NCBI RefSeq assembly: GCF_000967915.1
Contig: NC_022549.1
Span: forward strand, 1,290,366 to 1,354,365
Length of the DNA: 64,000 nucleotides
Origin: Paracholeplasma brassicae
GTDB lineage: Bacteria > Bacillota_I > Bacilli_A > Acholeplasmatales > UBA5453
Direction: 5' to 3'
The stretch's first letter is position 1, and each line of letters begins with the position of its first letter. The notes below the pieces were generated by a model. It was not told the origin of the DNA. It made no database searches and saw nothing but the letters and a program-made list of their open reading frames with translations. The position numbers were made by a program, and so were the translations under genes. This document shows positions 21,309 to 62,214 of this stretch, piece by piece.

Positions 21309-21677
21309 ATACTCATCTCTTTTCTTTTGTACTTATATTGTATCATGTCTGTGTTAGAAAAATGTCTGACTTATGCATTTCAAATAGAGCAAGACCGATA
21401 AAATGACCTTTCATCGCGAAATGTTCGGTTCTTGACTTGTTGTCTTAAGCCTTTATGACTTCGATTAGGATACTCTTTAATATTCTACCTTTATTTTCTT
21501 ATCGATCCTAACAAATAGAAATGCTTTATCGATAGAGCTATTAATTTTGTTATCATTTGAATTTAACTGCATACAACACGTGTGCGATTGATAAAACACA
21601 TATGGACATAAAAATTTGCGACAAAATTGAAGAAAAAGGGCCTTGCATAGGCAAGGTCCTTTAACGTCATTCATCAG
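21309..21677. other. Non-coding gap upstream of dbpA
   Basis: 369 bases. Near the dbpA end a TGATACAAT extended -10 box lies on the minus strand (about 21335-21345). The other end holds the giant-gene terminator. A 65-codon minus-strand frame at 21477-21674 has no ribosome-binding site or recognisable motif and covers the terminator. Nothing else seen. Confidence 0.45.
21633..21662 (-). terminator. Terminator of the giant surface-protein gene
   Basis: Stem AAAGGACCTTGC / GCAAGGCCCTTT with loop CTAT (one mismatch), followed by TTCTTC on the minus strand, 16 bases past the stop codon. Confidence 0.8.
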
Positions 21678-24600
21678 TTAAACACTTACAAAATAAGCAA
21701 CAATTGCAGCTCTTGTAAATCTTGTTCTACTAACATCTGTGAAGTCACTTTGTGGTAGGTCATCAAGATATAGTTGCGGTAAATCATTGATTAACATATC
21801 CGATACAAGGTGATAAACAATTGTATTTGGTGCTGCAACGAGTAATGCAATATCCGCATCGTCTAATGATTGAAGATTAGTTAATGTGATTGAACTAGCG
21901 ATGTCACCAACGTTAGTAACACTTAAAATCGTCATTGCTTGGACAAGTGCTTCTAGTTCAGCAACTTTAATATCGTCACCGATTGCATTTGCGTCATAAT
22001 TTGAATCACCACTTACAGCTAACGATTCAGTCGTATGGATGTTTGCACCCTTAACGCCACTAGCAACTAAGCGGTAAACAATTAGTGAATCTACGTTTAA
22101 CAAGTCATCTAACTTCGCAGTTGTTAAATTAGCTGGTGCGATGGTTGTTAATGTAAGATCATCCATTGTTTTGCTTGTGTCAGTATCAGCTAGAATCACT
22201 AATGCAGCGATCATACCTGTAATTTCACTCTTAACTAAATGTTCATTTATTACTGTGTAAGCACCGGTTGGCACATCCATAGCGCTAATAATAGCGCTTG
22301 ATAGGATGCGGTCAACGATACTTGAATTTAGGGCATCAAGTTGTTGAAGTTGTGCGATTGTGATGGTTTGGGCATCCATTGATACGGTAATGTCTGAGAC
22401 AATCATAATACCCATTGCATCAATTAAGGCACTTAGTTCACTACGTTTGATGTCTTTGCCTGGGTGGTTCGAATCAAAGTTTGAATCACCAAGGACTGAA
22501 ATTGCTTCGGTTGGAACAGTAATTGCAGTTGAAGCGATTAATTCTTTAGAAATCATGCGATCTACTAATCTTGAATCTAGGTTGTATAAGTCATCTAACT
22601 GACCTTGTGTTAGAGACGTTGTATCAATACCAGCAGATAGGTTATTAACACCTAAAATACCGAGTGTTTGAACAAGTTTCTCCAATTCAGCGTTTGTGAT
22701 GTCTAATTGATCATTGTCTACGTAACTTGATGTTGGTACATCAACAACAATTTCGATCACACGTTCAGAAATGATACGGTCAATAATTCTTGAGTTATAG
22801 TTAACTAATACGCTTAGATTTGCTCTTGTTACTGCGTTAGGATCAACGCCGTCTGTTAAGCTAATGTTCAATGTTTGCATTGTGTTAGATAGTTTCGTTA
22901 ATTCACTTCTTAGAATGTCACTGCCTACTGCGTTACTATCAAATTCGATGTCACCAGAGACTGCAAGTGCAGACGCTGGAACGTCGATTGTTGAATCTAG
23001 AATTGATTTAGAGATCAAGCGATCAACCAATCTTGAATTTAATGCAAGTAACGAATTGAATGTCATGTACGTGATTGCATCCACATCGATTGGTGCTGAC
23101 AAGTCAGCGTTTAATGCGATAAGGGCATCAAGCACATTAATTAATTCTGCTTTGCTGATGTCTAAGGTTGATCCGACTTCATAAGATGATGTAGGAACGC
23201 TTGAGACATTGGCAATTACTTCTTTAGATACTAAACGGTTAACGATGATTGAATCTCTAGAAACCGCTGTCTTAATCACACTTGGTGTTAAGCTAGCTGG
23301 ATTAATACCGGTTGTTAAGTTGACGTTTAGATCGCCTAAAGCAAGAATGATACGTCCAACTTCTAGGTAATCAAGGTCTAACTTGTTATTTAATTCATCT
23401 TCTTCAGAGGTTGCACTAAATGCGTCATCTCTAATATTTGCTCTTCCAACGCTATCGATGATACCTTCAGATAGTAAGCGGTTAATGATATCTGAGTCTA
23501 GTGCATGTAATTGTTGTAATTTAGCGGTTGTAATTGAATCGACACTAATATCATCTGCTAGTGAAGCCACATTAATGATACCTAATGCATCAATTAATGA
23601 TTGAACCTCAGTTCTAGCGATGCGAGTACCAGCGTATGAAACGGTCGGTACACTTGTTAATGCATTTTCGATTTCATCACTAATGATTTGATCAATCACG
23701 CTGCTGTTTAAATCATGTAATTCTTGTAGTTTAGCTACAGTAACTGTGTCAACAGTAACGTCTGCAACATCAGTTACACCTAAGACACCAAGTGCATCAA
23801 ATAGGCTTGTGATTTCAGTTACCTTAATCATACCATCAAAGTTTCCACTGGTTTCTAATGCGTCTGCTGGAATTGTAATATCAGTTTGACCCTTAAGTAC
23901 TAAGTCAACAAATGCGTATAGATAAGTCGAATCTAAGACTTGATCAAGTTGAGTTTGAGTTAATCCAGTTAATGTAGATACACCTACATTTGGATTAGCA
24001 AAATCAGTAATACCTAAGACATCAAGTGCAACAAATAGTTTTCTAAGTTCAAGCGCGGTTAAGCGTTGTCTTGTGCCAACGGTTTCAGTTGCAACACTTG
24101 GAATGTTAAATAAGTTTGGATCAAATAAATCGTTCGCCAATAAGTCGATAAAGCCTGGTGCTTGAAGTAACAAGTCAAGTTTATCAACAAGGTACTTAGA
24201 CTCTAATACTCTGTCTAAATCATCTTTAGTTCCCACCACGTTTTGACCAATTAGGCCAGTTAACATGTCTGGAGAAACTGAGGATAAATCGGTACCAATG
24301 TTTAGTAAGCTTAAGGAAACCATTAAGTTTCTAATTTCAGCTTTAGAGAATCGGTTTAACTCGATACCTGAGGTACCTAGTGTGTCTACTGGTGCTGAAA
24401 CATCAAAGGTGTCTACCACTTTAACAAGGACTTGAGTTAATTGTTCATTAGCAAGGGTATCAAGCTCATCCATTTCAAATACTTTAGCTAGAATAACGTA
24501 TAGAATACCTGAATCTAAGACTCTGTCTAAGTCATCTTTCGATCCTACTAAGTTACGTCCGACTAAATCAGTAAATGTATCTAGATTAACGGCTTGTCCA

Positions 24601-27600
24601 CCAGTTAATGTATCTAATCCAATGGTATCAACGGCAACAACTGCGTTTCTTAATTCAGAAACTTTAACAAGCGTTCCATTCATTACGGATGGATCGAATG
24701 CAAATAAGTCAGAAGTTGCAGTAAATGTGGTTTGAATTTCATTTGCTTTTGAAACTAAGTAGTCAATCACATTAGAATTTGTTAATGCGTTAGAAATTAG
24801 TGAGTGTACTACTTTTGATACTAATAATTCATCAAAATCGTCATAGACGTTGTTGTTTACATTTTGACCAACTAGATTAGCAAATGAATTAAAGTCCACT
24901 TGAATACTCCAGTCGATTAATGAAGCTGCCCTTACGATTGCGATGACTTCAGATGCTTTTAACACACCATTTGCATCAACTGCATCTGGATGAATATTGA
25001 ATAATGAAGCAGTCACAGTTAAATCAGCGAAGTCCGCATTTTCGCTAGCAAACTTATTAATATAGTTTACTGCAAAGTTAGCGACAACTGCGTGTTCGTT
25101 AAAGTTTAATACCTTATCAAAGATTGCAACTAAGATATTTGATTGCATCATGTAATCAATGTTGGTAGTAAACTCTTTTTCGTCATTTAAAGCTGTGATA
25201 ATTGCTTGTGGGTTACCTAAATCGACATCTAACCAGTCCACACGTGTCAAGCTTAATACAAGTTGAACAAGTTCTTCTCTCTTTAATAAACCTTGGTCGT
25301 ATAGATTGTATTTAACGTCATTGAATAAGAAGAATTCTTTGCTTAGATTTGGACTAATGCCAAGTTGTTCTTGTGCAAGTTCGTTAATTTCGTTTGCTGC
25401 GTTTTGAAGTAATTCGTCATTTGCATGCGTTTCAAGTACTAAATTATAAGCAAGTTCTGTATCGAATAACTTTTCAACCGCATCGGTGCTATGAATCTTA
25501 GAGTACATTAATTTTTGATTACTTAGATCTCCAAAACCATCTAATTCAAGCGAATTGAATAGAACCACATAGTTCATTAATTCATCTTTCTTAAATCGGT
25601 TTGTGTTGTCGAGTAAGTAACTTGGAATTTCCATCTTAGTTTCATCGATTTGAATATTGAAGTCAAGTTTTGCTGCTTCGGTTTCAATCACGTAGGCAAC
25701 AATCGACATCACGTCTTCTGATTTCACTAAACGGTTAATGTAATCATAAATAATACCTGAATCAAGTACTTGGTAGAAACGAGCCTTGGTTTCACCATCA
25801 AGTAACATTGGTGCTTCCCAGCTTGCAATGGTATTCACGTCAAATGCTTTATCGACATCAAAACCAACGGCATAAGCGCTAAGTAGTAATTCTGCAATGT
25901 CAACGGCTAATAGACGTTCGTTGTAAACAAAGAGGTCTCGGTTGATTTCAAATAAGCTAGCATCTACTTCTTGATTGTAATTATTAAGTACTTTAGTGTT
26001 CACCAAATCAGCCACAAGTGTTGTCCAAATGTCTGATAATAAGACTTGATTTAACATGTGAAGAACGATTGGTGTATTTAGAGCTTCTACTAATAGGTCA
26101 CTTGAAGTTTCAACATCAAAGAGATCCGCGTAGGCTTTAATATTCTTTAATTGTTGCATGTCTTCAAATTGACTAATGCCTAGCTTGTTAAATGCAACGA
26201 TTAAGCTTCTTAATGAGGCTTCATTTACAAGTTCGTATGAGATTGCTAGGTCTTCTTTTGTGATAACACGGATGTCAACACCTAATGAAGTAGCGAAACT
26301 TGGGACTTGTTCGTTGATCAAATCTGCTAGTTTTTGGCTAGTTGATTCATGGTTGGCTAATTTTTCAATTAAACCATTAATAACTTCTGAACCAAAGATT
26401 AAGCCTAAACGGTCTTTAGTGACGTTAGCGTTTTGTTTTTCTAGTAGATTAACTAGGAACGCCGGTGTTACCATTTGATCCATAATTGGTTTAAATTCGA
26501 TAGCTGAGGCTGCAAATAAGATTTCAGCCGTTGCTTTTACAGATAGTCTACCATTTGTATCTTCATAACCTTCGATTCTTAAATCTGAAGGTGAATAGAA
26601 GATTTGGAATTCATCAAAAATGAAGTCTGAAGCAAATTCATAAAGACCATCTTGTTTAAGCGCTGCGTCGATTAAGTATCGAACAAGATTCGTATGAGCG
26701 ATGTATGAAAGGTAATTAGAACCTTCAATGGTCATATTAGATAACGTTGTTAAGCTATTGACATCAACGTTTTCAAAGTCGTCTTGACTATTGATGTTAA
26801 GTGCCTTTAATACGTTTCTAACTCTGACAAATTGTTGGTAATCAAATAGGCCATTTTCATCGTTTACTTCACTAATTGCGACTAAGAATTCTTCAACGTC
26901 TAGTGATAAGTCGTTTAATACTTCGATGTTTTGATCACTAATCAAATCATTAATGAAGTTAACAGCAAAGCTACGAACACCAGTATCTACTAAAACATTC
27001 GTTAGTAACGAGTGAACAATCTTCGACTCAAATAAATCATCAATATCTTTTGAACCATTAAAGTTCATGTCTTTATCAAATAGATCAAAGGCGAATTGAA
27101 CGTTAAGGTTGTCTAAATCGATGACTTGTGCAAATTCTAGAATACTAATTAAGTGTTTAACTTCAAAGACACCCTTAGCATCTGAAATATGATTAAAGTC
27201 AAATAAGTTTTCTGTGACTTGTAAGCCGACAAGTTCGCTTGAAATTTCTGGTAAATACTTGTTTGCTAATTCTGCGTATAAGACATTTAAGTCAAGCGCA
27301 GGATTGCCTTCTGTATTTAAAAGTTTATCGAATAATGCAACTAGAATATTTGATGAGAAGATGTAATCAATATTCTTAACGTTGTCATTACCTTCTTCAA
27401 GTAATAAATCAATTAGATAGAAAATATCGTCGGTCGTATTAAAACTTAACGACGTATAATCAATTCTTAGACCTGATTTAATCAACTGTTTGATTTCTTC
27501 ACGTTTAAAGTAGCCATAATAATCTTCATCAATGCTGACAAGATCATATTTGAATTCAGCAAACATAAACGTTTGTGCTTTAACTTGGTATGAAATACCG

Positions 27601-30600
27601 AGTTCATCGTTTAAAACAGTCGTTAATGCTTCTGCTAGTGATTCACGGTTATCTGGTGAAGCTAATAAGCCACCAATCACGTAATATAACCAGTCAGAGG
27701 CTAATAGGTGATCAACTACCATGGTTTCATTAACTTTTTTTGAGATGAATGATAAATCACTAAATTGATCAAAATCATTCCATGAAACTAATTCTAATGA
27801 AACAAAGGCATTTAATAACGATGTAATTTCCGTTTTCTTTAAACGTCCATTTTCATCTAATGCTTCTTTTGGTGCATTTAATAGTTTGTAGTCGATTTCT
27901 AAATCAAACCCTTGCGCTTGTGCTTGATCCATGATTAAGTCAGCAAGTGCTTGTTTGATTGTCATATCTGCAAACAATTTATCGATGTAAGTGAAAAGTA
28001 CTTCAGAATTAAGAACTTGATCCACACGGACGACCATTTCACCTGCGACCATGGTTTGTTCAACCATTTGAGCCACAAATTCAGGGTTCAATTCCGCATC
28101 AACGTCATAACCCGTTGCGTAAAGTGCTTTAACCAAATCAACGATATGAACAGTGTCAATGACGCCGTTAGTAAATAATCTTTGATCGAGCATAAATAGT
28201 TCTTCATCTAATGTGATGTCGACTAAATCCACATCAACTAATAAGTCATTAACTAAATCGGTTACAAATGAGCTCCATAAATCACTCACTAATACCGTAT
28301 TTAATACGAACTTAACGAGTGGCGTGTCAATTAATGAAACAAGAATGTCATCGGATTGATCCAAACGAACAAGACTTGTTACGTCACTGATTGTCTTAAT
28401 CGATGTTAGTTGATCAACGGAATAAATACCCGCATTTTCAACCGCACTGATTAAACTTCTCATGGCGTCTTCATCAATTAAATCGTAACTTAAATTAAGG
28501 TCATTTGAGTTAAGTTGTCTAAATGAGTAATCCATTTGTTCAGAAACGTTTGCAAGTTGTTCATTTAATAAATCAAGAACTGCAATTTCTGTTTCTTCAT
28601 TTTCGATGACGTTTTGCAATAAAGCACGAACGTATCTTGAACGGTAAATAAAACCTAAGGCATCTTTACTATCATTAGAGAACGATTGATTGTTTAATGA
28701 GTAAACATAAGCAATGATGTCGTTGGTTGTGATTTCTTGGCCTTCAACAATCAGCTCATGAATCTTGAGTGATGCCGCAGCAACCATTAAATCATAGAAG
28801 TCTGCTTGTTCTAAGTAACCTTTTTGGTCTAGGTATTGAGGATCAATTTCTAAACCAGTTAGGTCTGATTTTAACAGAACATCTGATAGAACCATATCAA
28901 AATCAACTAAGATTGGGTTTAGTTCTTCTTCTGCTAAATCATAAGCCCATGATAAGACACCATTATCTTGGAGTAGGGTTGTAATCACACCTCTTAAGAC
29001 ATAAGAACCTGAGACATAATAATAGACGTTTTTACCATCAACTTCGTTGTAGTAATAATCCGTAATCATGCGAAGTTCAAAGTTAGTTAATTCATCAAGG
29101 CTTGAAATATCAAGTGCGTTAAACGCATTTAATAAATTTTTAATTTCGACATGGTCGAATAGTCCATTGTCGTCTTTGATTGAAGTCACTACAGCAAAGA
29201 GTGCTTCAAAATCAAGAGTTAATCCTTCTAACATTTCTTCTTGTGCAACGATCTTATCAAATTCTTCATTTGCTAGATCAATGACGTAAGTTTCAAGGTT
29301 TGGATGATCAACGACGTTTGTAATGACTTGGTGTAGAAGTTTCGATCCAAAGACCGCATCGATGGTTTCATCGTTAATTGTCTTCACGTAATCAAGCAAT
29401 ACATCGACGCTAAAATCAGTCACTAAGGCTGAAGGAACTTGTAGTGCAAGTGCACCTAGTAATAACTTAGAAATTTCGCCTGCATTTAAAACACCATTAG
29501 TGTATGCTGCATCAAATCTTAAGCTACCTGTAATAACGTCAACAGGTAATTCGATACTTGATAATTGGTCATAAATGTAGTCAATCACCACTGGATTAAC
29601 TAACGCTTCACCAACAATACCTTCTAATATCGCCATGCGACCAAACGCATCAAGTGTTTGTGCATTCATTGTATTAAAAGCAGAAAGGTATTCGTCAATT
29701 TCTTTAACGTCTAACGCGTCTTCAATTGTTTGGAATGCCAACTGTTGGTTTAATTCATCAATCACAGCCGCTGTGTTTGTGATTAGTTCGCTTAATACGC
29801 CCACTTTTAATCCATTTTCGTCGGTTGTAACCTCAGGCAAGCTTAACACATACCCTGGAATTAATTCATCAAGTGCGTCACTAAAGTTATTAACAACTTT
29901 TGGAACAGAGGCACGGAAGATAAATGAACTTTCAAGTTGTCCAAAAGCTCTTGAAGTTAACGCTTGATCTTTAAATTGAGTCACTAATGAAACCGGAAGT
30001 GCTGTTGGCTCATCCGCGATTTCTTTAATGCCATTGATTGATAAGGTGATGTTTGGATTTGCACCAACTTCAACACCTAGGTTAAATGCACCATTAATTA
30101 AACGATTTAACTCAGATTCCCATTCAGCAGATTCTGGGTTCTTGTTCATTAAGTCGGCAGGAATTTCTACGTAATCAATGAGCACTTGTTCATTTTGAGC
30201 AAGATCCATTAAATTGTATGCGATGTTTGCCATCAACAAGTTTGAATGTCTATTTTGATTGGTTATGGTTAAATAACTTCTAAAATTGTCATTAGACAGC
30301 AGTGGTGTGAAGTCAATGTCTTCTAATTCTTTACCTGCTTCTACTTCTTGATTGGCAAATTTACCTGCTTCATAAGCCACATTTAAGATGGTCGTAAGAT
30401 CCTTCTTAAGTTCGACTTGACCAGGTACGTACAAGAAATCAAGTGACATCGCTTCTTTAACGTAACTTAAAATGTCGCCATTGAGACGTGTAACCATTTG
30501 TAAGTTCGTAAGTTTAGTCACCATTGTGTTAAATTGTTGAGTCGATAACCCACCAAAACCAGCAAGAACGTCTACCATTTCATTTGCGCCTAACGTTTGG

Positions 30601-32729
30601 TTCGTAAATGTTCCAATTGAGGCAAATTGGTAGAATACTTCAACAACACTTAAGACGTCATTGACTTCTTTACCATAGTTGAAATTTGTTTCTCCTGAGG
30701 TTGGATTAACACCTAAGCCATCTTTAATAAGTGTTGCAAGATCCTCATCATCAACAAATTTATCAACTAACGCTGGTGCTAGTATTTCTAACGCACGATT
30801 GATGGCATCTGAACCATCAAAAATAGTGGTTGTAATTTCTTTAATTGCCGTTAAACCTTCTTCTGATTTTGCCATTTCTTCTAAGAGAGCGTCAACAGCA
30901 TCAATCATTTCAACGTCATCAGCAAATAAGCCTTTGATACCTAAGGAAAGAACTTGGCGGTAAACATCAACGATGTTTGTTAACTCACCTTTCCAAGCAG
31001 TACCATCTAATTCGGTTGCTAATTTATCGACTAAGGTTTCTTCAAAATCTTCACCTAAGAAGGTGTAAATTGAATAGTCTGCTGCAATTGGCATTGCTTG
31101 AATGACTAAATCCAAATCGATAACCGCAAGTAACACTTCATTAACCCATGCTGAATAAACCGGATCGTCACTTAAGAGCACATCCAGATTAGAAATATTA
31201 TCAACAATGTAGGTTAAATCCAAGTCACCACTATATTCTTCACTAAATACGGCACGAACAACATCCGATAACTTACCAATTTGATTTTGAAGGTATTTTA
31301 AATCTTCTGTCATAAAGGCAGAACGGTTATTAATGTAGTCTTGTCTTTCTTCTTCTGGTAACCAGTCGATGAAATCAAGAACCATTTCATTAGAACGCGC
31401 GTAATCCACGCCCGCATTAGCAAGTACTAACATCTCTAACTTAGATAATGCATCAATCGCGTCTGCAACAAGTGCACCTTGCTCCGGTGTTAACTCAAGT
31501 AGCGCTTTTGGATTATCTGCGTAAACTAATAAATCTTTGACTGATGCGAAGTTAAGTGCAACTTCGAGAACGTCATAAATTCGATCAAATTCTTCATCCC
31601 AATTAATTTGATCAAACGCATCAAGTGCACGCTTTGAATCTTCACTACCATAGAAGTCAAATTCGAGTTCATCTGATAAGTATTCGGTGATTAACACACG
31701 AGTGGCAATCGGAATCACTGCATCAACTAAACGTGAACGTTGTACGCCATCAAGCATTCCTCTAATGTCTTCAAGGTCTTCTTTTGAAATGTCTTCGTAA
31801 TCAAACGAATTATCAAGAATGCCTCGATCAATCAAGAAACGACCAACGCCAACAAACGCTTCGACTTCGTCTGCAAGGTTAAGATCGGTTGTTTTCCCGT
31901 TTTCTTTAATCTTAGTCGTAAACACCTTATCGAAGATGTATTTGTCTAAGTTTTGTTCATTCACTTTGAATTGTCTAGCAAACGCGCCTAAACCGAGTTC
32001 GTTAAAATCCCTTAGCGCATCAAGAAGATCATTAACCATTTCAGCATTTTCACCTGTAGTATCCGCATAAGGTGTTGCTGAGGTTGAACCGGTTGCTGCT
32101 GTTGAAGAGGTTTCAACAGGACTAACCATGTTAGATAAGACCATGATTGGTAACAAGAAGATAAAGGCAACAATTACCCCTCTTACTGCGCCAATCCCAC
32201 CGCCAATAAAACGACTAGAAAGTTTTTTCTTCTTCCCTGAGCGTTGCCCTACAGGAACAAGATCATAACTTTTCGCATGACCATTGACTAAAACAACACG
32301 CTTTTTACCTTTAACATTCTTTTGAAGTCTTGGCTCAATTAAACGTGTCCAGATCATCTTAAAGAAGATCAACGTCAAAGCGTATTTGACAATCGGGTAC
32401 AAAATAAAAAATGCAACTATCTTCACAACTAAATCAACAAGCGCAAAAATTACTGCACCGACCCCAGGGTCAGACAGATATGCCTCGTATTCAGTTGGGA
32501 AGGCTTCCCATAATCCCTTGACTTGAGCAATCAAAGAGGTCGGTGTATAAAACCACCGAATGGTAAACATCGAAACAATAAACAGTGTAACTACTGTCAT
32601 TATCAAGCTGACAATGAAGTAGTACAAACTCTTAGTTGTTCCCCTCTTAAAGCCAAGGAAAAAGTGGAATAATACAAAAAGCAAAATGATACCCCACTGT
32701 GCAAGTAGTACAATCGAATTCAATTCCAT
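21678..32729 (-). CDS. Giant CvpA-like membrane-anchored repeat protein (3683 aa)
   Basis: By far the largest gene here. Residues 1-200 form a CvpA-like module: helices at about 5-27, 35-58, 90-125 and 176-200. A basic loop at 135-172 marks the cytosolic side, and GGGIGAVRGVIVAF precedes helix 4. A Ser/Thr/Ala linker (200-230) then leads to about 3450 residues without further helices, signal or LPxTG, so by the positive-inside rule the bulk lies outside. Residues 230-1180 are acidic and helix-rich. Residues 1180-2690 consist of units of about 107 residues; at least eight open with an EF-hand-like loop (for example DENGRLKKTE at 1625). They form two copies of a seven-unit block. Residues 2900-3640 are shorter units marked by DSRLVDRLIS-like segments. 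Monocistronic, with its own terminator; AAAGGCGGG precedes the ATG. No function can be named; adhesin, surface-layer or scaffold roles are guesses. Confidence 0.85.
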   Translation of the reverse strand: MELNSIVLLAQWGIILLFVLFHFFLGFKRGTTKSLYYFIVSLIMTVVTLFIVSMFTIRWFYTPTSLIAQVKGLWEAFPTEYEAYLSDPGVGAVIFALVDLVVKIVAFFILYPIVKYALTLIFFKMIWTRLIEPRLQKNVKGKKRVVLVNGHAKSYDLVPVGQRSGKKKKLSSRFIGGGIGAVRGVIVAFIFLLPIMVLSNMVSPVETSSTAATGSTSATPYADTTGENAEMVNDLLDALRDFNELGLGAFARQFKVNEQNLDKYIFDKVFTTKIKENGKTTDLNLADEVEAFVGVGRFLIDRGILDNSFDYEDISKEDLEDIRGMLDGVQRSRLVDAVIPIATRVLITEYLSDELEFDFYGSEDSKRALDAFDQINWDEEFDRIYDVLEVALNFASVKDLLVYADNPKALLELTPEQGALVADAIDALSKLEMLVLANAGVDYARSNEMVLDFIDWLPEEERQDYINNRSAFMTEDLKYLQNQIGKLSDVVRAVFSEEYSGDLDLTYIVDNISNLDVLLSDDPVYSAWVNEVLLAVIDLDLVIQAMPIAADYSIYTFLGEDFEETLVDKLATELDGTAWKGELTNIVDVYRQVLSLGIKGLFADDVEMIDAVDALLEEMAKSEEGLTAIKEITTTIFDGSDAINRALEILAPALVDKFVDDEDLATLIKDGLGVNPTSGETNFNYGKEVNDVLSVVEVFYQFASIGTFTNQTLGANEMVDVLAGFGGLSTQQFNTMVTKLTNLQMVTRLNGDILSYVKEAMSLDFLYVPGQVELKKDLTTILNVAYEAGKFANQEVEAGKELEDIDFTPLLSNDNFRSYLTITNQNRHSNLLMANIAYNLMDLAQNEQVLIDYVEIPADLMNKNPESAEWESELNRLINGAFNLGVEVGANPNITLSINGIKEIADEPTALPVSLVTQFKDQALTSRAFGQLESSFIFRASVPKVVNNFSDALDELIPGYVLSLPEVTTDENGLKVGVLSELITNTAAVIDELNQQLAFQTIEDALDVKEIDEYLSAFNTMNAQTLDAFGRMAILEGIVGEALVNPVVIDYIYDQLSSIELPVDVITGSLRFDAAYTNGVLNAGEISKLLLGALALQVPSALVTDFSVDVLLDYVKTINDETIDAVFGSKLLHQVITNVVDHPNLETYVIDLANEEFDKIVAQEEMLEGLTLDFEALFAVVTSIKDDNGLFDHVEIKNLLNAFNALDISSLDELTNFELRMITDYYYNEVDGKNVYYYVSGSYVLRGVITTLLQDNGVLSWAYDLAEEELNPILVDFDMVLSDVLLKSDLTGLEIDPQYLDQKGYLEQADFYDLMVAAASLKIHELIVEGQEITTNDIIAYVYSLNNQSFSNDSKDALGFIYRSRYVRALLQNVIENEETEIAVLDLLNEQLANVSEQMDYSFRQLNSNDLNLSYDLIDEDAMRSLISAVENAGIYSVDQLTSIKTISDVTSLVRLDQSDDILVSLIDTPLVKFVLNTVLVSDLWSSFVTDLVNDLLVDVDLVDITLDEELFMLDQRLFTNGVIDTVHIVDLVKALYATGYDVDAELNPEFVAQMVEQTMVAGEMVVRVDQVLNSEVLFTYIDKLFADMTIKQALADLIMDQAQAQGFDLEIDYKLLNAPKEALDENGRLKKTEITSLLNAFVSLELVSWNDFDQFSDLSFISKKVNETMVVDHLLASDWLYYVIGGLLASPDNRESLAEALTTVLNDELGISYQVKAQTFMFAEFKYDLVSIDEDYYGYFKREEIKQLIKSGLRIDYTSLSFNTTDDIFYLIDLLLEEGNDNVKNIDYIFSSNILVALFDKLLNTEGNPALDLNVLYAELANKYLPEISSELVGLQVTENLFDFNHISDAKGVFEVKHLISILEFAQVIDLDNLNVQFAFDLFDKDMNFNGSKDIDDLFESKIVHSLLTNVLVDTGVRSFAVNFINDLISDQNIEVLNDLSLDVEEFLVAISEVNDENGLFDYQQFVRVRNVLKALNINSQDDFENVDVNSLTTLSNMTIEGSNYLSYIAHTNLVRYLIDAALKQDGLYEFASDFIFDEFQIFYSPSDLRIEGYEDTNGRLSVKATAEILFAASAIEFKPIMDQMVTPAFLVNLLEKQNANVTKDRLGLIFGSEVINGLIEKLANHESTSQKLADLINEQVPSFATSLGVDIRVITKEDLAISYELVNEASLRSLIVAFNKLGISQFEDMQQLKNIKAYADLFDVETSSDLLVEALNTPIVLHMLNQVLLSDIWTTLVADLVNTKVLNNYNQEVDASLFEINRDLFVYNERLLAVDIAELLLSAYAVGFDVDKAFDVNTIASWEAPMLLDGETKARFYQVLDSGIIYDYINRLVKSEDVMSIVAYVIETEAAKLDFNIQIDETKMEIPSYLLDNTNRFKKDELMNYVVLFNSLELDGFGDLSNQKLMYSKIHSTDAVEKLFDTELAYNLVLETHANDELLQNAANEINELAQEQLGISPNLSKEFFLFNDVKYNLYDQGLLKREELVQLVLSLTRVDWLDVDLGNPQAIITALNDEKEFTTNIDYMMQSNILVAIFDKVLNFNEHAVVANFAVNYINKFASENADFADLTVTASLFNIHPDAVDANGVLKASEVIAIVRAASLIDWSIQVDFNSFANLVGQNVNNNVYDDFDELLVSKVVHSLISNALTNSNVIDYLVSKANEIQTTFTATSDLFAFDPSVMNGTLVKVSELRNAVVAVDTIGLDTLTGGQAVNLDTFTDLVGRNLVGSKDDLDRVLDSGILYVILAKVFEMDELDTLANEQLTQVLVKVVDTFDVSAPVDTLGTSGIELNRFSKAEIRNLMVSLSLLNIGTDLSSVSPDMLTGLIGQNVVGTKDDLDRVLESKYLVDKLDLLLQAPGFIDLLANDLFDPNLFNIPSVATETVGTRQRLTALELRKLFVALDVLGITDFANPNVGVSTLTGLTQTQLDQVLDSTYLYAFVDLVLKGQTDITIPADALETSGNFDGMIKVTEITSLFDALGVLGVTDVADVTVDTVTVAKLQELHDLNSSVIDQIISDEIENALTSVPTVSYAGTRIARTEVQSLIDALGIINVASLADDISVDSITTAKLQQLHALDSDIINRLLSEGIIDSVGRANIRDDAFSATSEEDELNNKLDLDYLEVGRIILALGDLNVNLTTGINPASLTPSVIKTAVSRDSIIVNRLVSKEVIANVSSVPTSSYEVGSTLDISKAELINVLDALIALNADLSAPIDVDAITYMTFNSLLALNSRLVDRLISKSILDSTIDVPASALAVSGDIEFDSNAVGSDILRSELTKLSNTMQTLNISLTDGVDPNAVTRANLSVLVNYNSRIIDRIISERVIEIVVDVPTSSYVDNDQLDITNAELEKLVQTLGILGVNNLSAGIDTTSLTQGQLDDLYNLDSRLVDRMISKELIASTAITVPTEAISVLGDSNFDSNHPGKDIKRSELSALIDAMGIMIVSDITVSMDAQTITIAQLQQLDALNSSIVDRILSSAIISAMDVPTGAYTVINEHLVKSEITGMIAALVILADTDTSKTMDDLTLTTIAPANLTTAKLDDLLNVDSLIVYRLVASGVKGANIHTTESLAVSGDSNYDANAIGDDIKVAELEALVQAMTILSVTNVGDIASSITLTNLQSLDDADIALLVAAPNTIVYHLVSDMLINDLPQLYLDDLPQSDFTDVSRTRFTRAAIVAYFVSV
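21790..23710 (-). repeat. About nine degenerate 70-90-residue tandem units at the giant protein C-terminus
   Basis: Nine segments such as LDSDIINRLLS, LNSRLVDRLIS, YNSRIIDRIIS, LDSRLVDRMIS and LNSSIVDRILS recur every 205-270 bases. Linkers alternate between a VPTSSY type and a SGDSNxD type (SGDIEFDSN, LGDSNFDSN, SGDSNYDAN), so the true repeat is a pair of units. Confidence 0.7.
24650..29175 (-). repeat. Two copies of a seven-unit coding block (about 2.2-2.3 kb each)
   Basis: Within the giant gene, segments about 740-770 codons apart are more alike than adjacent units. NIDYIFSSNILVALFDKLLN near 27375 pairs with NIDYMMQSNILVAIFDKVLN near 25163. SDLWSSFVTDLVN pairs with SDIWTTLVADLVN, and FFLFNDVKYNL pairs with FMFAEFKYDL. 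Loop positions 1186, 1625 and 1850 have partners at 1957, 2374 and 2585. Boundaries are approximate; DNA identity was not computed. Confidence 0.7.
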
Positions 32730-33151
32730 AACTTTTATCCCGCCTTTTTATTTAATTTCTAATGTCATTCTAACAAAAAAACGGTTACATTTCAATCACA
32801 TATGTGCACACACCTATCAATATATGTCAAAACCAAGCTTCTTCTTTTTTCACATTTTTATGGTTTTTTTCACATTTTTAGATTAAAACAACTGAAATAT
32901 CGTGATTTATCGCGATTTTTTTTGAAATTCAAAGCATTTTTATAATTTTCACTATTTAAAAAGATTATAATTTGCAACACGGTAATTTCTTTCATTTTTC
33001 CTTATCTTTACAACAAACCTACTTTTTTTTACAATTTTATCTATTTTAGCACACTTACGCAATAATCCATCTTTTGATTTTGGCTTTAAAATTCGCTTTT
33101 TTTAGCGTATTTTGATACAATGTAAAGAGTAAAAATTAGGGAGTGTATAAA
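32730..33151. other. AT-rich divergent intergenic region with a 16-base direct repeat
   Basis: About 420 bases between the giant gene and the pseudouridine synthase. TTTTTTCACATTTTTA occurs twice with a 20-base period (32845-32860 and 32865-32880). TGATACAAT near 33113-33121 is a plausible extended -10 for the plus-strand gene. Long T/A tracts suggest intrinsically curved or nucleosome-excluding-like DNA. No ORF of credible coding character. Confidence 0.5.
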
Positions 33152-46306: not shown

Positions 46307-47201
46307 AATTTTTAATTGCTACTCTCAGCTTTGCTGAACGGCTTCTTGAATTTTCATTTAACTCTTCTTCTGTCGGAAGTATCGGTTTTCGTTGTTCAAT
46401 ACGAAGTGCAGGTTTTACATGACTTTGAATTGGTAGTCCTTTAGGTAGATTTAGTTCACTATGTTTTTTAAAAAAGTGTTTAACGATTCGATCTTCTAAG
46501 GAATGAAAAGTGATGATTGAAAATACCCCGTTTGGATTCATCATCTCTAATAAATCAGGCAAAGCTCTTTCTAATACACCTAACTCATCATTTACAGCAA
46601 TTCGGAGTGCTTGAAAGACTTTCTTAGCCGAATGACCTTTTTGTTTATATTTGTATTGATCGGTAATTTTTACCAAATCAAACGTTGTTTCTAGTGGTCT
46701 ATTTTCCACAATCTTCTTTGCGATTGGTCTGGCAAACTCTTCTTCCCCATAAGTTCTAAGAATGTAGGTCAGGTAGTCAAGGGATTGCTCATTAACAATC
46801 GTTTTTGCGGTAATCTTCGATTCACTATTCATGCGCATGTCAAGCGGTGCATCTTGCATGTAAGAAAAACCTCTAACGTCTTCATCTATTTGAAACGAGG
46901 ACATCCCTAAATCCATTATCACACCATCAATGTGGTAAATACCAAGTGAATTTAGCTCTTTTTTAACAAACTCGAAATTTGATTTAATGATCGTATAGTT
47001 TTGACTACTGCCTAATCGTTCTTTGGCAATTTTAATCGCAACCTCGTCTTGATCAAAACAATATAAATGACCTGTGGTCAACTTCTTCAATAATTCCTTT
47101 GAATGACCGGCACCACCCATCGTACAATCGACATAGATGCCATTTGGTTTAATATTTAAGGCATCGATTGTTTCTTTTAATAAAACAGAGTAGTGTGTCA
47201 T
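46305..47201 (-). CDS. rsmH: 16S rRNA m4C1402 N4-methyltransferase RsmH (MraW)
   Basis: 298 residues, standard length. SAM site YVDCTMGGAGHSKELL (about residue 23), then GVIMDLGMSSFQID, GFSYMQDAPLDMRMN, ALRIAVNDELG, TFHSLEDRIVKHFF and the C-terminal NSRSRSAKLRVA. It methylates N4 of C1402 in the 16S decoding centre. In walled bacteria it sits between mraZ and ftsL; here it follows an LTA-synthase-like gene (ATGA overlap) and ends the transcript. No cell-wall gene is near. Confidence 0.96.
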   Translation of the reverse strand: MTHYSVLLKETIDALNIKPNGIYVDCTMGGAGHSKELLKKLTTGHLYCFDQDEVAIKIAKERLGSSQNYTIIKSNFEFVKKELNSLGIYHIDGVIMDLGMSSFQIDEDVRGFSYMQDAPLDMRMNSESKITAKTIVNEQSLDYLTYILRTYGEEEFARPIAKKIVENRPLETTFDLVKITDQYKYKQKGHSAKKVFQALRIAVNDELGVLERALPDLLEMMNPNGVFSIITFHSLEDRIVKHFFKKHSELNLPKGLPIQSHVKPALRIEQRKPILPTEEELNENSRSRSAKLRVAIKN

Positions 47202-49189
47202 TTATTTGCCTCATTGATTAATTTGAAGTAATGATACCTTAAAATTGAATCATTCATCTCTTTTTGATGATAAAACTTCTGTATATATTCTTCTAAAAGC
47301 GTTGGATCATAGTCATTAATATTAATACTTTCATTAGGCATATTGATGTGAAAATCATCGCTAAATAAATCCATGGTAATTGCGTTATAAGTCCAAGTCT
47401 TAGCCCCACTTAAAATATCCACACCAAAATGATACTTCTCGTCTAGTCCAAATAAATTTGAAATGGTGCGCTTTAAGTCGGTTTGACCACGTGTCATTGT
47501 TCGGTCTACGCCATAATTCGATAAATCCATACCTGGTGCTAAAATCATGAATGGCACGTTATGACTGTATTGTTGATAGCTAAATAGATTAATGTTTGGA
47601 TCTAATTGTCTTAAATCGTCCATCGTTAACCCACCCGTATGATCGCCATACATAACAAAGACAACGTCATCAAGTAACGCTTCTTCCTTTAACCCTTCAT
47701 ACCAATCTTCAAAGACTTGATCGAAGCGATGAGCATAATCTAGGTAATTGCCTAAATCCCCTTTAATCAGGTTTTCCCAAGGATTAATACCAGTCATCCA
47801 TTCCACATCAGCGTAAGGCGTATGAAGAACGGTTGAAAGTGCAAACACAAACTTTTTATGGTCACCATCTTTTAACACATTTGTTACGTATTCAAACGCA
47901 ACCGGGTCATCAACCCAACCATTGACAGTCTCTGTTAACGGATCATATAAGCCAAGCGCTTCTAATGACTCCATGTTCTGGTTATTATCCTTATTAAAAC
48001 CTAACATTGGGTAAACTTCGTTTCTCCGATAAAAATTATAAGTAGAACCAAAAACAGTGTACGTCTCATACCCTTTGTCCGTAAATAATTTTGGTAAGGT
48101 CTCGAAATACTCATTAACGTAATCAAAGTATGTAACGATAAATCCCATTGGACTTAGCCCAGTTAGTGAGGCAAATTCGGCATCAGAGGTTTTACCAACC
48201 CCAATATTTGAATAAAAATTATTGTAATAGACGGTAGACTCTTCTTTTAATAATTGATTAAAATATGGCATCACTTCATGAATTTCGCCATCGACATCAA
48301 AACTCAAGTTTAATAAGTAATTGTTAAATGACTCCATTTGAAGCATCACAATGGTCTTACCTTCGAAAATTGATGAAGTCATTAAGTCGTTACAAGTCGC
48401 TTCTCCTAAGTAATTTTTAGGACAATTTTCTGTTTTTTCGTTGACGTAGATGTCAATGTTCTCATTGAGTTCTTCATCCGCTAATATTGGTTCTGGTTTT
48501 GTAAAGACAAAACTAACCAAGTCATTAATATAATAGTTGTAAACACCCATCGTTTGGACGCCTTTTTGAGCCACACGATTGGATTCATAATAGGTGTTTT
48601 TGATTTCTGTAAAATAACCGATTTGTGACCAAGAGAATAAAATCAATCCCACGACAAAGAAATTTAGAACCCTCATCATTTGTGGTTTTGTCTTATCTAG
48701 ACGTTCTTGATGTAAATAACGATTTTTAAGCTCCATGATGGCTAATACAAACACTATAATTGCCGGAATGACCGCGACATACTGTGCGGTAATAAATAAA
48801 TTCTTCCATAAGTGGAAAGTCAATTGTTGACCTAAGACCGGTGCAGAATTCGAGAAAGTTCTTGCGTTAAAGAAAGAAAATGCCGTACCATAATAGAAAG
48901 CATAGACTTTTAACGAAAATATCATAACCGATAAACCAATGGTTGTTAACGTCACTAAGTAGATAAACGTCCTTTTTTTCTTTGCGATAAAGTAAAATAT
49001 CGTAATCAAGATGACGAGTAGACCAGAATCACCCATAAAAGAGTTCAAAGTTGTTTGTAAGTTTCCTTTAAATAAATTCATACCCGGATTAAAGAGTTCA
49101 GTTGTAATAACCAAACGATTCAATAAATTCAAGACAAAAAACAAAATAATCATCAGTAGAAAATACGTTTTCTGATTTAATTTTTTCAT
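47198..49189 (-). CDS. LTA-synthase-like sulfatase-domain membrane protein
   Basis: 663 residues from ATG 49189, with GGGGTGAG upstream; the GTG at 49198 lies in that site. Five N-terminal helices (about 10-190) are followed by an extracellular sulfatase-fold domain. Probable nucleophile Thr is in GVGKTSDAEFASLTG (about 330), equivalent to LtaS GKTSDSEF. Other metal/active-site pieces are FEGKTIVMLQMESFNN, VMYGDHTGGL and HNVPFMILAPG. Members transfer glycerophosphate from phosphatidylglycerol to build lipoteichoic acid or modify glycans or lipids. If this organism lacks a wall the product may be a lipid-anchored glycerophosphate polymer. Coupled to rsmH. Confidence 0.85.
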   Translation of the reverse strand: MKKLNQKTYFLLMIILFFVLNLLNRLVITTELFNPGMNLFKGNLQTTLNSFMGDSGLLVILITIFYFIAKKKRTFIYLVTLTTIGLSVMIFSLKVYAFYYGTAFSFFNARTFSNSAPVLGQQLTFHLWKNLFITAQYVAVIPAIIVFVLAIMELKNRYLHQERLDKTKPQMMRVLNFFVVGLILFSWSQIGYFTEIKNTYYESNRVAQKGVQTMGVYNYYINDLVSFVFTKPEPILADEELNENIDIYVNEKTENCPKNYLGEATCNDLMTSSIFEGKTIVMLQMESFNNYLLNLSFDVDGEIHEVMPYFNQLLKEESTVYYNNFYSNIGVGKTSDAEFASLTGLSPMGFIVTYFDYVNEYFETLPKLFTDKGYETYTVFGSTYNFYRRNEVYPMLGFNKDNNQNMESLEALGLYDPLTETVNGWVDDPVAFEYVTNVLKDGDHKKFVFALSTVLHTPYADVEWMTGINPWENLIKGDLGNYLDYAHRFDQVFEDWYEGLKEEALLDDVVFVMYGDHTGGLTMDDLRQLDPNINLFSYQQYSHNVPFMILAPGMDLSNYGVDRTMTRGQTDLKRTISNLFGLDEKYHFGVDILSGAKTWTYNAITMDLFSDDFHINMPNESININDYDPTLLEEYIQKFYHQKEMNDSILRYHYFKLINEANK

Positions 49190-49308
49190 TTGTCTCACCC
49201 CTAACCTTTTTTATAATTGAAATACCATATTATTTTATAATAAACCCGTTTTATTGTAAAGACAAACCCCTCTAAGAATCGGTTTATGTGAAAGTATCGT
49301 TGCACTTA

Positions 49309-60840: not shown

Positions 60841-62214
60841 ATGAAAAAAATAGAGCGTTTTTTAAATTCAAATTATTATCTCATTCTCATTACACTTATC
60901 GGGTTTTTAACTTGGGTAATGAAGGATGATTATCAACAATATAACGAGTATGGTATGCTTTTACTCTTAATTCCAATGTCACTGATATTCATGTTGTTTG
61001 AAAACACCATGTATACGATGCCATTGTTTGCAACCCTACTCTACATCTACAACGTTCAAGGCATGAATCTTGAGACAATCAGTGGTTTTCACTTCGTCTA
61101 TGTGTTGTTCTTCTTTTTAGTGATTGGTCCTATTGTCCACTTGATTCGGTTTAAACCAACGTTCAAAAAAGGCGCATTATTCCTTGCCTTCTTCTTATCT
61201 GCACTAGCGCAAATATTATCAATTTTCTATGTGAAGGTCACACCAACCTACCTACAAATCTCACTTTTCGGTTTCTTTTATTTGTTGCTTTATGTGTTTT
61301 TTGTGAGCACATCAAAACCATCTTTAGCGTATGTCATGAAAATCATGTTTTTCATGAGTTTACTCTTAAGTGGGGAGATTTTATTTAATATCTATCAAGG
61401 ATTTCAATCCTACGGCATTGAAATTGGAATTAAAGAACGCATTAAATTAGGCATGAAAACGTCCTGGGGTCGTGGCGATTACGGTTGGGGCAATATCAAT
61501 GACGTTGTTATCCACCTCGTTTTAATGATGCCTTCACAAGTGTATTATCTCCTCAAATACCCAAAACGCTTGGTTCTGTGGTTTTTCCCGCTACTAAGTA
61601 GTTTTACCATCTTCTTATCTGCTTCAAGAGGCGGCTATATTTCACTAGGTCTTTCCATCTTATGCTTCGCAGTCATACTCATTCGCTACGGTAAGAGACA
61701 CACCTATTACAACGGATTGATCGCTCTTGTTGTCACAAGCCTAATTCTAATTAAATTTCCTGTGCTTGTTGAGACCGCTGTTGAGGTCTTTATGCAAGGT
61801 GGTCTTGATGATTTAGATCAGTTCTCCTCTTCAAGAATCACATTATACAAGCACGCTGTTGAATTATTCAAACAGTACCCGATTTTTGGTGCTGGTTGGG
61901 AATCAATGACCGACATTGGTAATCCAAATCGAATTCAAGTCTTTCATTCAACGTTGTTTCACACCATGGCGGTCATGGGAAGCTTTGGTTTAATCGCACT
62001 AGTTGTCTATTTCTATCAAACTTACCGATTAATGATTGAAAAAAGAAAATTTGAAGTCCTCTTTATTATAATTGGTGTAACTGTGACACAAATTCATGGC
62101 TTAATTGATAATACACAGTTCATGCTTGTTTACACATTCATCACGATCATATTAATGGTCTCAATCGAAAATAACACCCAAATAGAAACAAAAACCGTGC
62201 CTATCCTGAATTAA
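60841..62214 (+). CDS. O-antigen ligase/polymerase (Wzy/WaaL) family membrane protein
   Basis: 457 residues with about 11-12 hydrophobic segments. A long soluble loop between late helices (about 310-375) holds SSSRITLYKHAVELFKQYP, GAGWESMTD and HSTLFHTMAVMGSFGL, the conserved Wzy_C region. SASRGGYISLGLSIL precedes it. Members polymerise or transfer lipid-linked glycans on the outer face. No other glycan genes are adjacent, so the substrate is unknown. With the LtaS-like protein it indicates outer-surface polymers. Confidence 0.85.
   Translation: MKKIERFLNSNYYLILITLIGFLTWVMKDDYQQYNEYGMLLLLIPMSLIFMLFENTMYTMPLFATLLYIYNVQGMNLETISGFHFVYVLFFFLVIGPIVHLIRFKPTFKKGALFLAFFLSALAQILSIFYVKVTPTYLQISLFGFFYLLLYVFFVSTSKPSLAYVMKIMFFMSLLLSGEILFNIYQGFQSYGIEIGIKERIKLGMKTSWGRGDYGWGNINDVVIHLVLMMPSQVYYLLKYPKRLVLWFFPLLSSFTIFLSASRGGYISLGLSILCFAVILIRYGKRHTYYNGLIALVVTSLILIKFPVLVETAVEVFMQGGLDDLDQFSSSRITLYKHAVELFKQYPIFGAGWESMTDIGNPNRIQVFHSTLFHTMAVMGSFGLIALVVYFYQTYRLMIEKRKFEVLFIIIGVTVTQIHGLIDNTQFMLVYTFITIILMVSIENNTQIETKTVPILN

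Follow-up and report, generated by a model that had tools for sequence, protein, structure and literature searches.

A giant cysteine-free repeat protein with a distant CvpA-like membrane head: a candidate surface rod in wall-less Acholeplasmatales and their relatives

The source organism is a wall-less mollicute of the order Acholeplasmatales, and the stretch of its DNA analyzed here (64,000 nucleotides, referred to below as the window) gives 17% of its length to a single gene. The open reading frame is intact, starts with ATG and has 3683 codons, as a preliminary description of the region had reported; it lies on the minus strand, which that description had left out. The features of the gene and of its product are collected in Table 1. 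Chance can be set aside as the origin of so long a frame because homologous ORFs of similar size occur in many genomes and close pairs of them give a dN/dS of ~0.1. The gene stands alone, preceded by a promoter-like site and a ribosome-binding site and followed by a terminator-like hairpin. The promoter-like site lies 38 bases before the ATG and ties for the best score in the region, where sites of this kind are no more frequent than in shuffled sequence. In several relatives of the giant, AAAGGCGG precedes the start codon. The flanking genes, named from their sequences, encode a DEAD-box helicase downstream and a divergently oriented pseudouridine synthase upstream. None of the neighbors is conserved between the window and the relatives, and an operon or partner-gene reading was rejected on these grounds, although tandem pairs of giants occur elsewhere. 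The window also codes at 47198-49198 for a sulfatase-family protein, which adjoins rsmH, and at 60841-62214 for an O-antigen-ligase-like protein (Wzy_C); neither mraY nor sortase was found in the genome.

Table 1. Positions in the window of the giant gene, its putative signals and the parts of its product.
Feature	Position	Strand	Remarks
Giant-protein gene	21678..32729	-	product 3683 aa, 407 kDa, pI 4.1, no Cys
Promoter-like site, TTGAAA-N17-TAGAAT, TG before second hexamer	32767..32795	-	consensus match only
Ribosome-binding site region, AAGGCGG upstream of ATG	32730..32746	-	
CvpA-like four-TM head, residues 1-210	32100..32729	-	TM about 8-28, 33-58, 88-127, 173-203
Basic loop TM3-TM4, predicted cytoplasmic, residues 128-172	32214..32348	-	basic in 34/34 family heads
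Membrane-proximal helical region, residues 225-996	29742..32057	-	collinear in close relatives
18 long repeat units, ~105 aa each, residues 997-2888	24066..29741	-	
10 short repeat units, ~76 aa each, residues 2889-3658	21756..24065	-	
C-terminal cap, last half-repeat, residues 3659-3683	21681..21755	-	similar in relatives
Intrinsic terminator-like hairpin followed by T run	21641..21656	-	~22 bases past stop of giant gene

The first 208 residues of the protein contain four strongly hydrophobic segments, and an AlphaFold2 model of residues 1-1060 (mean pLDDT 73) places the helices of the head at 3-29, 31-54, 88-139 and 170-200. The basic loop is thus followed by a last helix, as had been described. 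When the protein was compared with the Pfam family CvpA (PF02674), the score was 11.3 bits (E 0.34) for the whole protein and 19.8 bits (E 8e-4) for the head taken as a 220-aa piece, neither of which reaches the gathering cut-off of 29.3 bits. Among 34 heads from across the class, 15 matched PF02674 (best E 6e-10), and one family member of 1078 aa scored 32.5 bits, which is above the cut-off. In a profile comparison with hhalign, the 34 family heads matched eight bona fide CvpA proteins at 94.8% (E 5.6e-8, 178 columns). The relation is called distant because a profile restricted to the 10 closest heads reached only 4%, which is not significant, where the profile of 34 heads matched. The earlier assignment of the head to a CvpA-like module consequently holds at the level of the family profile, and the head is a distant CvpA relative on that basis only, its own score lying below the Pfam cut-off. 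The features shared with CvpA are four TM helices, basic cytoplasmic loops, a GF.RG motif after TM1 and an R..GG..G..RG motif before TM4; the head glycines and the basic motif are retained across the class. A first alignment of the heads yielded no usable pattern for a genome scan.

The distribution of charge in the heads bears on their orientation. On average the loops between TM1 and TM2 and between TM3 and TM4 carry a net charge of +2.6 and +1.7 per 10 aa, respectively, while the other sides are negative, and the two loops taken together are net positive in 34 of 34 heads. This asymmetry predicts that both termini, including the C-terminus that leads into the giant domain, lie outside, in agreement with an N-out/C-out inner-membrane topology of the CvpA type. 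There is one strong hydrophobic peak later in the protein (residues 532-550, mean hydropathy 2.0); in relatives the value there is only 1.3-1.8 and charges are conserved, against 2.3-2.8 retained by TM3 and TM4. No conserved membrane helix follows the head, so the earlier statement to this effect stands.

Directly after the head come ~790 collinear residues that precede the repeats, and over residues 997-3658 a single unit recurs 28 times in diverged form. BLAST of fragments against each other found repeat-to-repeat matches of up to 45% identity as well as a duplicated 750-aa block of units (about 1040-1930 versus 1850-2665, ~31% identity); self-BLAST of the whole protein was blank, probably owing to the loss of any hit that falls within the full-length match of the protein to itself. 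The part after the head is acidic and helical, and the short repeats were modeled as helices with a pLDDT of 84. The ectodomain has no cysteine, where 15 would be expected from the other proteins of the window (P 3e-7), and cysteine is also absent from all 14 relatives examined. The repeats anticipated by the preliminary description are therefore present, and their external location is predicted from the charge bias of the head together with the absence of cysteine. The models suggest a rod, in which confidence is only local.

Searches of Pfam, NCBIfam, PHROG and PDB returned no match for the part after the head. Beyond CvpA, NCBIfam and Pfam gave no match in the protein, including the trypsin-like protease domain and the DUF5776 and SH3 domains, and it has no G.SGG motif, no LPXTG motif and no C-terminal TM. 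Against the solved structures, which include repeat folds such as HEAT, ARM and TPR, Foldseek gave no match at E <= 0.001 for either model and VIA-align none at Z >= 5 for the repeat model, a result that does not establish the repeat fold as new. Turns of the form D.NG.L...E might be read as EF-hand or dockerin elements; the ectodomain of the window protein contains three half-like D.NG.[IL]...E turns, against 0.15 expected, and no canonical DxDxDG loop, and this reading was rejected. No enzyme, ligand-binding or partner domain was found in any family member scanned. As neighbors are not conserved either, the earlier suggestion of an intercellular system has no direct support.

Relatives of the N-terminal 351 residues were detected in 29 of 61 genomes (own genome included), among them Peloplasma aerotolerans, Acholeplasma laidlawii and many Acholeplasmataceae MAGs. 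Of 296 genomes sampled from the class, 125 match a profile built from 19 heads when the limit is E <= 1e-3. At E <= 1e-10 there are 112 carriers in 11 families, and the head nearly always sits on a giant ORF; the window protein is not a lone case. Most head matches lie at the beginning of an ORF, with ORF lengths of 700-6056 aa. Members from other families are matched by the repeat HMM as well, including one family whose carriers have mraY. Genomes of 0.7-0.9 Mb within the Acholeplasmataceae-like family, probably phytoplasmas judging from their size, have no CvpA-headed giant. In a wider sample, whose reach beyond the class is uncertain, head matches were confined to the same class.

Several members of the family differ in arrangement. 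Another CvpA-headed protein is encoded in the window's genome (G000:C1:775968-779615; L032 4469-8116); it has 1215 aa, and no copies of the window protein's repeats can be detected in it. The head of this second protein is like the ones found in the other species of the genus, whereas the window protein is like those of the Acholeplasmataceae-like family. Tandem CvpA-headed giants of 2941 and 955 aa (L135 1150-14816) and of 2636 and 1322 aa (L142 1013-14824) occur, and each pair is followed by a reading frame of ~580 aa, similar in size at the two loci, which in L135 looks like a lipoprotein with 5'-nucleotidase/metallophosphatase domains. The 1078-aa protein mentioned above (L131 1153-4386) lies ~6 kb from a 4557-aa CvpA-headed giant (L130 675-14345) on one contig, and the window-type repeat HMM finds nothing in the latter. 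In-frame stops occur near the start of two giant genes (L104 9983-10960, MO-XQ after 325 codons; G044:C1:982547-983611, TAG) and could be broken copies, sequencing errors or phase variation. Single-contig genomes of families f8 and f18 (G168, G323, G338 and others), which are Mycoplasma-like, encode proteins of about 170-370 aa with a CvpA-type head and no giant ectodomain, and several of them read TGA as sense within the match.

Selection was examined in two pairs of close relatives that are 85-86% identical overall. The dN/dS was 0.06-0.07 for the head, 0.09 for the membrane-proximal region and 0.10-0.12 for the repeats, and the head was 92% identical compared with 83-88% for the rest. The giant protein is under purifying selection and constrained along its whole length. 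One of the close pairs differs by a clean indel of 169 residues, about two repeats; the reach of the protein changes by gain and loss of whole repeats.

Carriage of the giant was compared with genes for sortase, the enzyme by which bacteria usually attach proteins to their surface, and for the cell wall. Sortase was found in 0 of 112 carriers and in 77 of 184 non-carriers, and when only genomes with mraY are considered the numbers are 0 of 34 and 76 of 94; the split follows families and whole clades and is in part phylogeny, so the tiny Fisher values overstate its independence. The pattern among carriers agrees with a published genome survey in which sortases were missing in RFN20 and ML615J-28 and from which reduced surface proteins were inferred (PMC10868615). 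Of the carriers, 34 have mraY; in one family this is true of all six carriers, and in a second family of 10 of 11. The giant is for this reason not tied to the loss of the wall, and it is not simply a wall substitute.

Four groups of known proteins offer points of comparison. CvpA itself has a short tail, whereas the window protein has a predicted external domain of 3,470 aa and a head below the curated cut-off. MarP of mycobacteria resembles the window protein in that four N-terminal TM helices, which we take to be CvpA, carry a C-terminal domain outside the cytoplasmic membrane. MarP (Rv3671c) is a periplasmic protease (PMC4992679); its homologue has 397 aa and a trypsin-like protease, unlike the window protein, which is without protease motifs or domains and has an external part nine times that length. 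The statement that no described family has this architecture is correct for the libraries searched, although MarP is a known case of a CvpA-type head joined to an external domain. Giant1-3 of Apilactobacillus kunkeei are giant extracellular proteins of imperfect helical repeats that are predicted to form long rods (PMC12863079). They begin with a signal peptide, lack TM segments and carry SH3b-like wall-binding domains at the C-terminus, in contrast to the polytopic N-terminal anchor of the window protein, which matches no wall-binding domain. Sortase-anchored LPXTG proteins likewise have a long repetitive external stalk tied at one end, but the window protein is anchored N-terminally in the membrane, with no LPXTG, no C-terminal TM and a genome devoid of sortase. 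The leg proteins Gli349 and Gli521 of gliding mycoplasmas are giant surface proteins of wall-less bacteria; the likeness rests on size and on the wall-less host, and Peloplasma, which carries the giant, is described as non-motile.

The reading frame, the homology of the head, the repeats, the family and the selection were computed directly, and on balance they probably describe a membrane-anchored giant surface rod or tether that is independent of wall and sortase and has a role in adhesion or spacing. In this model the CvpA-type four-helix head would insert in the cytoplasmic membrane, its N- and C-terminus both on the outer side, and serve as signal, anchor and start of export. The ~3,470 residues after it would be exported and would form a cysteine-free helical stalk consisting of the ~790-residue membrane-proximal region and the 28 repeat units. 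By analogy, this stalk may be adhesive or structural, acting at the cell surface as a rod or tether for adhesion or spacing; it would require neither peptidoglycan nor sortase, and gaining or losing whole repeats would determine its reach. Purifying selection of this strength is less typically seen in adhesins exposed to a host or its immunity and counts against a surface rod. The head may also do more than anchor, since CvpA proteins themselves play a part in cell physiology.

This last point leads to a rather unlikely alternative, in which the CvpA head is the working part, related to a channel, transport or stress, and the giant domain is an external sensor or recruiter, as in MarP. The greater conservation of the head (in both dN/dS and identity), the class-wide retention of the glycines and the basic motif and the collinearity of the ectodomain right after the head in close relatives would fit, as would the requirement of CvpA for deoxycholate resistance in EHEC (PMC6705877). 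The scanned members nevertheless lack enzyme and ligand-binding domains, and with lengths between 700 and more than 6000 aa and with repeats that come and go, a spacer fits better than a sensor. It is improbable that the giant is a substitute envelope, with a coat of protein taking the place of peptidoglycan in lineages that have no wall. The absence of mraY from the organism's own genome and from all sampled carriers of f1 (the window's family) and f4 (the Acholeplasmataceae-like family) speaks for such a coat, as does the wall-less state of the carrier Peloplasma (PMC11122141), but the carriers that do have mraY weaken the idea. Least probable is an oppositely oriented head with the repeats as a cytoplasmic scaffold: helical arrays resemble solenoids and Foldseek weakly ranks cytosolic scaffolds (none below E 0.001), but the charge bias in every one of the heads, the lack of cysteine and the predicted C-out topology, as in MarP, argue against it.

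The combination of features seen in the surface-rod candidate is absent from CvpA, MarP and the A. kunkeei giants, and no library searched describes it. We tentatively suggest, as a possibility somewhat short of even, that the family is a class-wide, undescribed surface-display system in which CvpA-type polytopic N-terminal anchors hold giant rods in sortase-less lineages, walled or wall-less; it would predate the wall losses in this part of the Bacilli and would be a main structural surface protein of acholeplasmas and of uncultured relatives. How surfaces are built independently of sortase in wall-less and thin-walled Bacilli is poorly known. If the suggestion is true, the giant family would be a main candidate for such a surface, given that it has no entry in the libraries searched, is under strong selection and occurs in 11 families of the class, and the CvpA domain would gain a new role.
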